A DNA stretch of 64,000 nucleotides from an uncultured Clostridia bacterium (GTDB lineage Bacteria; Bacillota; Clostridia; Oscillospirales; Ruminococcaceae). Position 1 is the stretch's first letter, and each line of letters starts with the position of its first letter. The stretch covers positions 1 through 64,000 of the forward strand of contig CAMVNQ010000002.1 in NCBI GenBank assembly GCA_947168885.1, given 5' to 3'. Below the pieces are notes generated by a model. It was not told the origin of the DNA and searched no databases. It worked only from the letters and a program-made list of their open reading frames with translations. Shown here piece by piece: positions 7,877-11,616 of this stretch. Both the position numbers and the translations under genes were made by a program.

Positions 7877-7966
7877 TGGCGCAGAAAGAGGGATTTGAAC
7901 CCTCGCGCCGGTTTCCCGACCTACTCCCTTAGCAGGGGAGCCCCTTCACCACTTGGGTATTTCTGC
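7877..7966 (-). tRNA. tRNA-Ser (GCU anticodon)
   Basis: A 90-base class II tRNA with encoded CCA. The acceptor stem GCAGAAA pairs with TTTCTGC. The anticodon loop reads CTGCTAA (anticodon GCT), a long variable arm follows, and the T loop is GTTCAAATC. It reads AGC/AGU serine codons. It is co-transcribed with the second tRNA-Ser 57 bases upstream. Confidence 0.95.
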
Positions 7967-8023
7967 AAGTGCCGATTCCTTTAATATTCTGTTTTCTCTG
8001 TAAATAATAACGGTGAAAACCGT

Positions 8024-8112
<89 letters not shown>

Positions 8113-8220: not shown

Positions 8221-8250
8221 AACGGTCCGGCTATATAAGCCGGACTGTTT
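8221..8250 (-). terminator. Terminator after the radical SAM gene
   Basis: AACAGTCCGGCT and AGCCGGACCGTT form a long GC-rich stem with a TATAT loop, 3 bases after the radical SAM stop codon. The T-run is short (GTTTAG), so termination efficiency is uncertain. Confidence 0.6.
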
Positions 8251-8252
8251 CA

Positions 8253-9332
8253 TCAGAATTTCAGTATTTCTTTCATACAAAGCTCCGGTCGGTGCTCGTC
8301 AAAATTCCATGTGTGGAATGAGTCGCCGTTGCAGAACGCCCTGTCGTCACATTTATCGCACATCTCGCAGCTTCTGAACTTCGGGTCGCGGTAGTGAGTA
8401 AATCCGTTTTCCCAAACGTCTTTGAACCGGTCTTTGCGGATATTGCCGTAAATAAGCTCGGGTCTGCGCTCTATGTCAAGACACGCCGCTATATCGCCGT
8501 TCGCCATGATGCTTGCAGTATAAAGACCGGCGTTGCAGATAAAGTACCAGTCGCGCAGCTCGGCTTCGAGATTTGTTCCGAGAAAGTGCGAACAGCCGTA
8601 GCAGAGAGGGTAGCCCGCATCGCGTTTGTCTTTGATGAACGCGAACAGTCGCCTGTAGTCGTCGGGCGTGAGCAGAAGCTCGGGGTATTGCTTCGCACGA
8701 CCGATAGGTTCGAGATTTATCACACGCCACGAATCAATATCGATCTTGTCGAAAATACCGAACAGTTCGTCAAGCTCGTTTATGCTTTCGTGGGTGACAA
8801 CTGTTGTGACCTGAATGTGCTTGAAGCCGCCCTCGTCGATAAGGTTCTGCAAACCTGTCATAGCGCGTCTGTAACCGTCTTTTGTGCGGCGGAACTCATT
8901 ATGGGTGGCTTCGAGACCGTCGATGCTGATAGACACGGTCTTCATTCCCGCTTCGTAGAGTTTATGCGCAGTCTCCTTGTCGATGAGCGTGCCGTTGGTC
9001 GTCATTCCCCAGTTGAACCCGAGCTTATATGCATAGCCCATTATCTCGAAGAAATCCCTGCGGAGAAGCGGTTCGCCGCCGGTGATGCACAGCATGAAGC
9101 CTTTGGTGCCGAAATCTTCTTTTATCTGGTCGAGAATGCGGTAGTATTCTTCGGTCGAAATGATGTCGGGAGCGTTCCCGTCGCCGCAGCTGCTTCCACA
9201 GTGTTTGCAGTGTTCGTTGCAGTTCATCGTGAGCTCAAAGAAAAGGTGGCGGAGTTTCGGTTCTTTGAGCAGCTTTTTTCTGTATTCCGAAAGCTCGGTC
9301 ATGTGTTTTGTCTTGAGTACTCTGTTAGTCAT
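8253..9332 (-). CDS. Radical SAM/SPASM peptide maturase
   Basis: A 359-residue radical SAM enzyme with a SPASM domain. CxxxCxxC at C38, C42 and C45 binds the SAM iron-sulfur cluster, and GGEP at 85-88 is the SAM motif. The C-terminal half has the auxiliary-cluster cysteines C244, C247, C266, C284, C322, C325, C328, C334 and C352. The family includes anSME and RiPP maturases such as PqqE. It is the last gene after three repeat-peptide genes, 20 bases downstream of the nearest, so the likely substrates are the YGPPE peptides. The actual chemistry (side-chain crosslink, epimerisation or other) cannot be told from sequence. AAGGAAG precedes the ATG. Confidence 0.88.
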   Translation of the reverse strand: MTNRVLKTKHMTELSEYRKKLLKEPKLRHLFFELTMNCNEHCKHCGSSCGDGNAPDIISTEEYYRILDQIKEDFGTKGFMLCITGGEPLLRRDFFEIMGYAYKLGFNWGMTTNGTLIDKETAHKLYEAGMKTVSISIDGLEATHNEFRRTKDGYRRAMTGLQNLIDEGGFKHIQVTTVVTHESINELDELFGIFDKIDIDSWRVINLEPIGRAKQYPELLLTPDDYRRLFAFIKDKRDAGYPLCYGCSHFLGTNLEAELRDWYFICNAGLYTASIMANGDIAACLDIERRPELIYGNIRKDRFKDVWENGFTHYRDPKFRSCEMCDKCDDRAFCNGDSFHTWNFDEHRPELCMKEILKF

Positions 9333-9352
9333 AGCGTATCTTCCTTGCGCTT

Positions 9353-9949
9353 TTATTCAAACCATTCCGGCGGACCGTAAACATCTACCGGATCGTTCTC
9401 CTCGGGATCAAAATCGTCATCGTCGTCATACCGGTCAAAGTCTGCGTCGCCGAACCATTCCGGCGGGCCGTAAACATCTTCGGGCTCGTTTTCCTCCGGG
9501 TCGAAAGTGGCAGTGGTGGTCGTGGTTTTCTTGGTTTTTACGGTTGTTTCTGCGGTTGTGGTCTCTTCGGCGGACTTCTTTGTCCTTCCGGCAGTGATCG
9601 CGAGCGGGGGAGAAGTTACCGCTGCCGTAGTCGTAGTTGTGACTTCTTCGGTCGTAGTCTCCGCCACAGACGTTTCGGAAGCGGGAGCGGTAGTGTCCTC
9701 GAAAGTCGTTTCCTCGATACCGAACCATTCGGGCGGCCCGTAAACGCATTCGATCTCGCTGTCAACGGGGTCGTAAGTATCGGATGAAGTGAGTTCGGTC
9801 GTGGTCATTTCCGTTTCGGTCTCTGACTCGTAGTATTCCGGCGGACCGTAAACGTTCTGCTGCTGCGGCGGACCGTACATTCCGCAGGCGCCCAATGAAA
9901 CGGCGGCGGTAAGTGCGGCGGCAGCGCCTGTGATGATACGTTTCTTCAT
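9353..9949 (-). CDS. Lipoprotein-like YGPPE repeat peptide 1 (putative precursor)
   Basis: A 198-residue secreted protein. A basic start and hydrophobic stretch end in the lipobox LGAC with C22. Tyr-Gly-Pro-Pro motifs start at residues 25, 34, 70, 160 and 191. The last three are identical VYGPPEWF, and the final one sits at the extreme C terminus. Spacers are low-complexity, rich in Thr, Glu and Asp, including a run of five Asp. It resembles a multi-core RiPP precursor displayed on the membrane. Its ATG overlaps the stop of peptide 2 by 4 bases with AAGGAG upstream. The role as substrate of the downstream radical SAM enzyme is inferred from context. Confidence 0.8.
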   Translation of the reverse strand: MKKRIITGAAAALTAAVSLGACGMYGPPQQQNVYGPPEYYESETETEMTTTELTSSDTYDPVDSEIECVYGPPEWFGIEETTFEDTTAPASETSVAETTTEEVTTTTTAAVTSPPLAITAGRTKKSAEETTTAETTVKTKKTTTTTATFDPEENEPEDVYGPPEWFGDADFDRYDDDDDFDPEENDPVDVYGPPEWFE

Positions 9950-10323
9950 TCTTTCGTCTCCTTGCTGTCGGCGGCTTTGACTTCATTTTCCGCTTCAATG
10001 CTTTCAAAAAGCTCCGGCGGACCGTAAAGCGGAGCCGCAGTCGTCATTGCGGTATTGTCGGTATTTATCTCATTCTCCGCCGTATCATCTTCCTCATTGT
10101 TAAAATACTCCGGCGGACCGTAGAGCGTAGGTACAAAGTTTTTCCCGCTGTCAGACGCAGTCGTTGTTGTCTCATCCGAGACCGTACCGGACTCAAAATA
10201 CTCCGGCGGACCGTAAAGCGCGGGAACAGTCGAGCTTGCCGGATCGTTGAACAGGTCGCATGAACCGACGGCCGCAACAGCGGTGAGCAGAGCCGCCGCT
10301 CCAATTACAGTACGTTTTTTCAT
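9946..10323 (-). CDS. Lipoprotein-like YGPPE repeat peptide 2 (putative precursor)
   Basis: A 125-residue secreted protein with signal start MKKRTVIGAAALL and lipobox VGSC (C22). The signal closely resembles that of peptide 1, so the two are probably duplicates. The motifs LYGPPEYF, LYGPPEYF and LYGPPELF have their Tyr at residues 37, 68 and 100. Spacers are acidic and Thr-rich. GGAGATGAAG precedes the ATG. It is translationally coupled to peptide 1 through an ATGA overlap. Confidence 0.8.
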   Translation of the reverse strand: MKKRTVIGAAALLTAVAAVGSCDLFNDPASSTVPALYGPPEYFESGTVSDETTTTASDSGKNFVPTLYGPPEYFNNEEDDTAENEINTDNTAMTTAAPLYGPPELFESIEAENEVKAADSKETKE

Positions 10324-10424
10324 GACTTCATCTCCATTCTATATTCGCACCGCGGCTGAAGCGGGGAAGGGCACAGGTGCTTCATAAATAACACCGTGCG
10401 GAGATGAAAAAGGTTACGGAAAAA

Positions 10425-10811
10425 TCATTTTTCGGCAAAGTTGTCTTCATCCGGTTCTTCGGTGACATCGGGCTCTTCCGGCTCATAGCCGATAGCCCCC
10501 AGCATTTCCGGCGGCCCGTAAACATCTTCGGCGACATTGTTCTTCGTCCGTGTGTTCTCGAACCATTCCGGAGGGCCGTAAACACCCTCCGCGGGATTGT
10601 TTTTCCGAGGCGGATATTTCTCTCCGCGTCTGCGCGCTTCAATCATCTCCGGCGGACCGTAGATGCATTTTGCTCTGTTTCTTTTTGCGGAGAAGAAAGA
10701 TTTCTTTGGTTTTATCTCTTTGTTATCACTATTCTCAGCATCTTTAAGCATTTCCGGCGGACCGTAAAGCTTTTGTCCGTGTGATGAGATATTTTTTCTG
10801 AATAATTTCAT
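10425..10811 (-). CDS. YGPPE repeat peptide 3 without signal peptide
   Basis: A 128-residue protein with no hydrophobic signal. The first 70 residues are strongly basic and the last 25 acidic. The motifs LYGPPEML, IYGPPEMI, VYGPPEWF and VYGPPEML have their Tyr at residues 16, 51, 78 and 98. It shares the motif but not the lipoprotein export signal of peptides 1 and 2, so it would stay in the cytoplasm unless exported another way. AGGAG lies 7 bases before the ATG. A 101-base gap separates it from peptide 2. Confidence 0.78.
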   Translation of the reverse strand: MKLFRKNISSHGQKLYGPPEMLKDAENSDNKEIKPKKSFFSAKRNRAKCIYGPPEMIEARRRGEKYPPRKNNPAEGVYGPPEWFENTRTKNNVAEDVYGPPEMLGAIGYEPEEPDVTEEPDEDNFAEK

Positions 10812-10828
10812 ATAAACTCCTGAATAAA

Positions 10829-10859
10829 GATAAAACGGCGGTTATGAGATACCGCCGTT
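10829..10859 (-). terminator. Hairpin between the HExxH gene and peptide 3
   Basis: AACGGCGGT pairs with ACCGCCGTT around an 8-base loop and is followed on the minus strand by TTATCTTTATT. It would terminate or attenuate transcripts of the HExxH gene. No good promoter is visible between it and peptide 3, so partial read-through may feed the peptide operon. Confidence 0.65.
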
Positions 10860-10872
10860 ATAATCTTCCTCG

Positions 10873-11616
10873 TCAGCTTATGACTTTTCCTGCTTCGTCG
10901 GTACCGTCGAAGCCAAGCATAAACATTCTGTGGAAATCTCTCATGTCAGCGCGCGTAACAGTCCTTGTCAGACCGCCCGAAACATAGATGCGCCCGCATT
11001 CGTCACAGGTGTCGGTTTTGATCTGCACCGTCTGGGAAACAACTTGTTTTCCCTCCTGTTTAGCTTTGGCACTTTCTCTGCGAACGTGTTCGAGCTCATG
11101 CATCCTTACTTTGCTTTTAGCAGCGGTAGGAGACATATTGGTCGGCATCTGGAACGAGACCGCAGAATCTTCCGAATCATCCTGATACCGCCTTTTACGG
11201 CAGGTCTCACACTCACAGTTCGGAGGATCCTTTTCAAAGCCGTCCTTCTTTTTGTTACCGAAAAGGTCTTTTTCTTCATCCTTTTCCTTGTCGCGAACGT
11301 CTTTATCGAGAATATTTCCTTCGGTTTTATCGGTTTTTTCAGCTTTTTCAGTCTTACCGGTCTTGTCATTCTTTTTTATGTCAATACCGAGCTTTTCAGC
11401 TTCTTCCTCTTTTTTCTTTGCTTTTTCCAAAGAACCGATGGGCAAATGCTCTTCCTTGAGTGTTCCGTCAAGATCATAACGGCTTTCATTTTTCTGTATG
11501 GTCTGTTCTTCCTTGAGACCGAGTTTTTGTGCGTCTTCCGACATTTTGAGATATGAATTGGCTGCATTCCTGTAGTTTGAAATGCTGTTGTTGAATTTCA
11601 GTGCATCCAGTGTCAT
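10873..11616 (-). CDS. Putative zinc metalloprotease-like protein (SprA-related type)
   Basis: A 247-residue soluble protein. Residues 25-130 are highly charged and Lys/Glu-rich, probably coil. The C-terminal part holds CECETC (134-139), RYQDDS, the zinc-protease motif HELEH at 173-177 and CDECGRIYVSGG (204-215). This order is that of a clostridial family related to SprA-type putative metallopeptidases; activity is unproven. It lies directly upstream of the YGPPE peptide genes on the same strand, so a processing role is possible, but the family also occurs elsewhere. Confidence 0.65.
   Translation of the reverse strand: MTLDALKFNNSISNYRNAANSYLKMSEDAQKLGLKEEQTIQKNESRYDLDGTLKEEHLPIGSLEKAKKKEEEAEKLGIDIKKNDKTGKTEKAEKTDKTEGNILDKDVRDKEKDEEKDLFGNKKKDGFEKDPPNCECETCRKRRYQDDSEDSAVSFQMPTNMSPTAAKSKVRMHELEHVRRESAKAKQEGKQVVSQTVQIKTDTCDECGRIYVSGGLTRTVTRADMRDFHRMFMLGFDGTDEAGKVIS

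Follow-up and report, generated by a model that had tools for sequence, protein, structure and literature searches.

The 64-kb stretch of DNA analysed here (the window, whose coordinates are used below unless an L-numbered locus is named) belongs to a Ruminococcus-type gut bacterium. It carries an operon of four co-directional minus-strand genes: three genes (9353-10811) whose products contain repeated Tyr-Gly-Pro-Pro (YGPP) sites, followed by the gene (8253-9332) of a radical S-adenosylmethionine (SAM) enzyme with a SPASM domain. From the linkage of the two, the enzyme very probably modifies YGPP. We favour, at roughly even confidence, the reading that this is a dedicated protein-modification operon in which tyramine would be excised at [V/L/I]-Tyr-Gly-Pro-Pro, leaving arrays of ketoamides on surface proteins. 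The operon probably serves to tag surface proteins chemically, by a route about which little is known, and not to make a small-peptide antibiotic.

An earlier note on this DNA had described three consecutive small genes with twelve copies of YGPP, eleven of them YGPPE. The count bears this out, and in shuffled precursors (20000 of each) YGPP appeared at most once, against the 5, 3 and 4 copies observed. All 12 copies have the form X-Tyr-Gly, and a six-frame search of the window gives no further YGPP. The statement that V, L or I precedes the motif holds for 11 copies; the other has M (MYGPPQQQ) and is also the sole copy of the window without E after YGPP. Codon variation at third positions is present as claimed but modest (Tyr TAC in 12/12; Gly GGT in 8, GGC in 2 and GGG in 2; first and second Pro each CCG in 11/12), so the argument for selection on the peptide is better carried by relatives of the system.

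Orthologs of the enzyme were found at E 1e-60 or better in 7 of 71 genomes of the genus and at E 1e-50 or better in 20 of 297 genomes sampled from the family, and the system is therefore patchy. A YGPP open reading frame (ORF) lies within about 1.5 kb of the enzyme at 23 of the 26 genus and family loci (own locus counted once). The exceptions are L014, which ends at a contig end, and L033 and L036, which have no YGPP ORF in 12 kb and whose genomes encode dockerin-matching YGPP proteins elsewhere (L174, L173). Of 518 relatives in titled genome records, the best 80 were taken as a set; YGPP ORFs stand beside the enzyme at 80/80 loci, with 351/353 copies on the enzyme's strand; an upstream YGPP ORF is missing only in L092, L101 and L113, where it lies downstream. 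Hosts include the Ruminococcus flavefaciens isolates MA2007, SAb67, YAD2003, MC2020, YRD2003 and XPD3002, the loci of YAD2003, MC2020 and YRD2003 being L104, L116 and L118, as well as many metagenome bins from rumen and gut that carry the labels Ruminococcus, Lachnospiraceae, Erysipelotrichaceae or Solobacterium.

Within the genus, clusters of YGPPE (two or more codon sites within 2 kb, read by eye) are present in 5/7 enzyme-positive versus 0/64 enzyme-negative genomes (Fisher p 1.6e-6). In the two other enzyme-positive genomes, G019 and G055, the enzyme is truncated by a contig end, and its neighbour in G019 has YGPPP. Across the family, clusters were seen by eye in 6/20 enzyme-positive genomes, many others having YGPP without E. 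One enzyme-negative genome of the family, G337, has a cluster. Both sites of this cluster have the sequence FLYPQSQYGPPEA and lie in ORFs of 51 and 44 codons; the same string is present in enzyme-negative G033 and G049 and may be another frame of some common stretch. The co-occurrence of motif and maturase proposed earlier is thus found both at the 80 loci and in the genus-level association.

YGPPE hits of enzyme-negative genomes were examined for all six cases in the genus (five genomes) and, in the family, for both of G337, both of G150 and one of three of G209. They were set aside as chance codons, being single copies in putative ORFs of 42-188 codons (stop to stop), one of them (L163) in no ORF of 25 codons; no repeats and no signal-like start are visible in these hits. 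Among viral contigs, one stretch matched a pattern and none encodes a relative of the enzyme.

The genome of the window contains 23 YGPP sites: 12 in the operon, 2 in a zinc-ribbon-like protein and 7 in ORFs of 22-105 codons. The two remaining sites fall one each in proteins that we take to be FtsZ and RuvB. The zinc-ribbon-like protein (L160:4591-5214), encoded on another contig than the operon, has LYGPPEML and AYGPPPMM in its N-terminal part and no Pfam match at E 0.01; it is one further substrate candidate in this genome.

The presence of YGPP in the apparent FtsZ and RuvB would agree, as indirect evidence, with YGPP being an unmodified binding motif of surface proteins beside a radical SAM enzyme that has another substrate. 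YGPPE proteins without a nearby radical SAM gene, which the earlier note held, if widespread, to speak against a maturase, do exist away from the enzyme, but the plausible ones among those examined come from enzyme-positive genomes only. Together with the linkage at 80/80 loci and with the YGxP lipoprotein that the sister family TIGR04133 has of its own, this makes an unmodified motif hardly credible.

The 351 copies on the enzyme's strand show what is constant in the motif. X-Tyr-Gly is true of them by construction, YGPP being what was counted; the preceding residue is V in 224, L in 76, I in 16, A in 15, T in 8, M in 5, E in 3, S in 3 and D in 1. The residue after YGPP is most often E (97), P (73), S (37), V (32) or W (28), and two places beyond it F is found in 140/351. 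Substrate ORFs also hold YGAP (13), YGPA (12), YGPM (7) and rarer YGxx, so that the fixed part, as far as sequences tell, is Tyr-Gly with Pro nearby. Since no downstream residue is fixed, cross-linking to a constant residue further along is unlikely. An N-terminal segment of the approximate form MKK[TS]..T.L[TI].A is shared by 78/141 YGPP ORFs versus 4 others, all 4 in the same operons, and a looser pattern by 98/141 versus 12 others, several of them unrelated; the first pattern was written after inspection of the substrates. The segment is either a recognition element or plain paralogy, common ancestry of the tandem paralogs explaining it equally well. Two operon members (L057:6240-7118 and L063:4531-5568) have the segment without YGPP, with only YGxP-type variants (LYGPAP in L063), and could show how far the recognition motif drifts.

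The proteins that carry the sites are diverse. Among 140 same-strand YGPP ORFs, 64 match Dockerin_1 at E 0.001, and a crude pattern assigns a lipobox to 49, another signal-like N-terminus to 78 and neither to 13. The YGPP proteins of L038 and L042 are DUF805 membrane proteins, and that of L046 is similar by look. Away from the enzyme, enzyme-positive G348 and G140 encode a YGPP protein of the PNP_UDP_1 nucleoside phosphorylase type (E 7e-57, 1e-56; L171:817-1980, L172:865-1980), with the domain starting at residue 133 or 117 and 3 or 2 YGPP sites before it. Both begin with MKLFKxK, like the signal-less substrates. Judged from these domains, the substrates are proteins, not just peptides. The YGPP lipoproteins at L092:9142-10579, L101:3334-4917 and L113:9064-9780, encoded 3' of the enzyme, come with a further region of about 200 residues (FAVLRIVSVP...); no Pfam match was found for L092:9854-10579, L101:3334-4104 and L113:9064-9780.

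Neighbouring genes were compared as ORFs of 90 amino acids or more within 4 kb of the enzyme at the 80 loci, 45 of which extend 4 kb or more in both directions. No gene family other than the YGPP ORFs is conserved there. The commonest non-YGPP neighbour cluster (14/80 loci) is mixed, with 8 UvrA-like proteins and 6 ABC ATPases of differing kinds (L047, L052, L056, L058, L072, L081). M42-type peptidases are found at 7/80 loci. At four of these, all Ruminococcus (L090:6847-8939, L094:3119-5190, L096:3179-5250, L085:9205-11264), a pair of M42-type aminopeptidase genes comes 118-134 bp 3' of the enzyme, the M42 match being tested for L090:6847-7932 only.

These neighbourhoods bear on the earlier note's logic, that of multi-core ribosomally synthesised and post-translationally modified peptides (RiPPs). 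In the classical form of that reading, short modified YGPPExx peptides would be released and leave the cell as signals or antimicrobials. One operon does hold short cores in repeats, small genes and a radical SAM/SPASM enzyme, the common N-terminal segment could be a leader, and the M42-type peptidases and ABC ATPases could be read in the same sense. However, these protease and exporter families each occur in a small minority of the 80 loci at most, the sites also lie in dockerin, DUF805 and nucleoside phosphorylase proteins, the N-terminal segment resembles a Sec signal, and the spacers are long and variable. That enzyme and YGPP proteins belong together stands; the substrates are mostly not RiPP-like and come without a conserved protease or exporter, and we regard excised peptides as quite improbable products.

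The 359-residue enzyme has Radical_SAM (PF04055) and SPASM (PF13186) domains, and domains and gene order agree with the claim that a SPASM radical SAM enzyme directly follows the precursors on the same strand. Its CxxxCxxC motif is C38/C42/C45 and its SPASM cysteines are at 266, 284, 325, 328, 334 and 352. The best of 77 NCBIfam families is TIGR04133 (rSAM_w_lipo) with 284.6 bits, under the cut-off of 425; no FibroRumin-type family is among the 25 best of the 77. A fold search is headed by SkfB, SuiB and anSME, and the fold does not tell the chemistry. anSME oxidises Cys or Ser of one motif in sulfatases, which is unrelated to YGPP. SuiB, the streptide maturase, differs in substrate motif and in the part before residue 97, presumably its peptide-binding RiPP recognition element (RRE), which has no counterpart in the window enzyme.

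Plasmid-borne TIGR04133 enzymes of Parabacteroides, Phocaeicola and Treponema, used as positive controls, score 607.9, 617.5 and 451.4 bits. The TIGR04134 lipoproteins beside them (207.1, 138.8 and 43.7 bits) contain CEYGSPHANF, CEYGTPSADY and SCYGMPENYY, so that YGxP comes shortly after the lipobox Cys (CEYGSP, CEYGTP, SCYGMP) as it does in gene 9353-9949 (GACGMYGPP). To judge from three members, YGxP near the lipobox Cys would define the TIGR04133/TIGR04134 system. On the Treponema saccharophilum plasmid (L145:3770-4975), a gene for an Mpi-type DNA invertase is directly 5' of the TIGR04134 lipoprotein and TIGR04133 enzyme genes, a hint of phase variation.

The trees place the clade of the window enzyme as the sister of TIGR04133: in both, YGPP and TIGR04133 enzymes are on one side of a branch (96/97, 92/93). 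The pairing of enzyme and lipoprotein is common to this system of Bacteroidota and Treponema and to the window operon, and the two enzymes share a Cys at position 247 and lack the fourth SPASM Cys. The window operon differs in its enzyme score below the cut-off, in precursors that have no TIGR04134 match at E 0.1, and in a motif repeated in arrays and present on dockerin, DUF805 and cytosolic proteins.

A second likeness is to the PlpXY spliceotide system. Passages of PMC10533398 and PMC11002830 describe PlpX as excising tyramine from X-Tyr-Gly with net loss of C8H9NO and ketoamide formation as having no need of a leader. In both systems a SPASM radical SAM enzyme adjoins X-Tyr-Gly substrates. 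A PlpX-family enzyme of a Nostoc plasmid (TIGR04103, 853.1 bits) is preceded by a Nif11-type precursor ending in ALYGLPPELF, strikingly like PLYGPPELF in window gene 9946-10323. X-Tyr-Gly is also found beside other enzymes on the PlpX side of the tree, in Azospirillum (MLYGG, KPYGV, RPYGP), Aureibacter (QPYGA) and Agathobacter (VMYGTG). That side was drawn in a tree of 24 rows, with ends trimmed, which separates YGPP, TIGR04133, PlpX/GDL and NHLP/Agathobacter enzymes from MftC, NirJ, TIGR04053 and two Paenibacillus enzymes (99/96).

On the Agathobacter rectalis plasmid (L146:4722-6173), a short peptide ending in NLFGPVMYGTGVRM is encoded directly before the PlpX-related radical SAM gene; the system lies beside rpsG-fusA-tuf, is absent from the PLSDB gene table and has the appearance of an X-Tyr-Gly system, here in a human gut species. 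At L141:1124-3030 and L142:1145-2994, AYG cores occur in NHLP-like precursors, the radical SAM proteins that follow having, by eye, a C-terminal TPR-like extension.

By analogy with PlpXY, excision of tyramine from X-Tyr-Gly would be the likeliest reaction of the window enzyme, a judgement that we hold with evenly balanced confidence. The leading expectation is then a mass change of -135 Da per site rather than the -2 Da per core given in the earlier note, because X-Tyr-Gly beside this type of enzyme points to tyramine excision. The same protein-modification system might instead perform another radical reaction at YGPP, such as a cross-link from the Tyr beta-carbon or ring to X or Pro, a mycofactocin-like oxidation of Tyr, an epimerisation of X or Tyr, or a hydroxylation or dehydrogenation. 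The recurrence of X-Tyr-Gly beside most enzymes examined on the PlpX side and the lack of any constant residue outside X, Y, G, P and P to which a cross-link could be made speak against these, and we hold them as a serious but somewhat doubtful alternative.

Several observations weigh against tyramine excision, a reaction that we infer from this analogy. The enzyme scores higher for AhbD (156.8 bits), MftC (145.7) and NirJ2 (141.9) than for the PlpX family TIGR04103, where 114.9 bits fall short of the cut-off of 725. The PlpX-family enzyme has the fourth Cys of CX2CX5CX3C; TIGR04133 lacks it, as does the window enzyme, where Ser stands at position 338 in place of the further Cys. No PlpY-like partner (PlpY being a truncated RRE) is encoded in the window operon or conserved, among ORFs of 90 amino acids or more, near the enzyme at the 80 loci, nor do the window substrates have a Nif11 or NHLP leader. 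Pro-Pro follows Gly directly and is invariant here, whereas a passage of PMC10533398 gives it as dispensable in PlpXY tags. No X-Tyr-Gly peptide was found beside the enzyme of L140, where the contig ends about 1.1 kb upstream, or of Tropicibacter, and YG gives way to YM or YA in three Azospirillum and two Aureibacter paralogs. The split on the PlpX side is seen only when five long-branch paralogs encoded by the own genome are left out, with five outgroup rows remaining; when they are kept, the deeper order is unresolved (30/30), the link to PlpX included. The role as protease inhibitor, too, is argued from analogy with the spliceotides, termed protease inhibitors in a passage of PMC11117315.

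If tyramine is nevertheless excised, the enzyme would recognise [V/L/I/M]-Tyr-Gly-Pro-Pro in disordered-looking stretches of co-encoded and some other proteins. Recognition would take place in the cytosol without a separate RRE partner and, we infer, before export. The modified proteins would then leave the cytosol as lipoproteins or secreted proteins, in relatives often tied by dockerin to cellulosome-type scaffolds. The cell would thus display arrays of electrophilic ketoamides, perhaps covalent-reversible protease inhibitors; a surface array as protease-inhibitor or anchoring device is plausible by analogy. A passage of PMC2930009 credits R. flavefaciens FD-1 with dockerin-bearing serpins and peptidases and with 118 dockerin proteins whose domains are unknown. 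A still wider role is possible though unlikely, in which YGPP would be a code for general protein modification in rumen and gut Clostridia and not part of a natural-product pathway: one stand-alone enzyme would put backbone ketoamides in place of Tyr at dozens of YGPP sites of lipoproteins, membrane proteins, dockerin proteins and a metabolic enzyme, with arrays of covalent, reversible protease inhibitors or of anchors on cellulosome-type complexes.

Should tyramine excision hold, radical SAM backbone chemistry would reach beyond small RiPPs to exported proteins, modified at multiple sites, in gut bacteria that degrade fibre, and YGPP would be a short tag for putting reactive ketoamides into proteins. 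A function could then be assigned to some R. flavefaciens dockerin proteins of unknown function. The proposal also suggests testable chemistry for the TIGR04133/TIGR04134 pair of Bacteroidota. The clade is sister to TIGR04133 and differs in having its sites in arrays, on surface and dockerin proteins; we regard it as a variant of a system already known in kind. The open-access literature searched yielded no paper joining YGPPE with radical SAM and none using the names TIGR04133/TIGR04134. A 2022 article by Scott et al. (Chem 8:2659), said by its title to concern widespread ribosomal beta-amino acids in peptides and proteins, may overlap. The words lipoprotein, TIGR0413 and splice are absent from the Bacteroidales RiPP survey PMC10352776, and passages of PMC9062424 and PMC9484694 hold nothing decisive for the system.

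The operon consists of the three substrate genes and the enzyme gene, with no further gene and none for leader removal or export. Genes 9946-10323 and 9353-9949 overlap by 4 bp, and 20 bp separate the latter from the start of the enzyme gene. By eye, the N-termini of substrates 3 and 2 are signal- or lipobox-like (LGACGMYGPP, AVGSCDLF).

Features of the YGPP operon in the 64-kb window
Feature	Position	Strand	Description
Enzyme gene	8253..9332	-	359-aa radical SAM/SPASM enzyme
Substrate 3	9353..9949	-	198 aa, 5 YGPP, signal/lipobox-like start MKKRIITGAAAALTAAVSLGACGMYGPP
Substrate 2	9946..10323	-	125 aa, 3 YGPP, signal/lipobox-like start MKKRTVIGAAALLTAVAAVGSC
Substrate 1	10425..10811	-	128 aa, 4 YGPP, start MKLFRKN... 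not signal-like
YGPP site VYGPPEWFE	9368..9379	-	C-terminus of substrate 3
Starts of the other 11 YGPP sites	9461, 9731, 9839, 9866, 10015, 10111, 10204, 10509, 10569, 10650, 10755	-	YGPP sites
Terminator-like stem	10834..10859	-	between upstream gene 10873-11616 and operon; consensus match only
Terminator-like stem	8225..8245	-	just 3' of enzyme gene; consensus match only

The range first given for the system, ending at 11616, goes too far, as it includes gene 10873-11616, which the stem at 10859-10834 sets off from the operon; 9 terminator-like stems were found in all, against 6.6 expected in shuffles. Two tRNA-Ser genes (7877-8112) are directly 3' of the operon. Among 8 loci scanned, such a pair was not found in L047, L051, L052, L057 and L116, and it also follows the enzyme in L048, L049 and L050.

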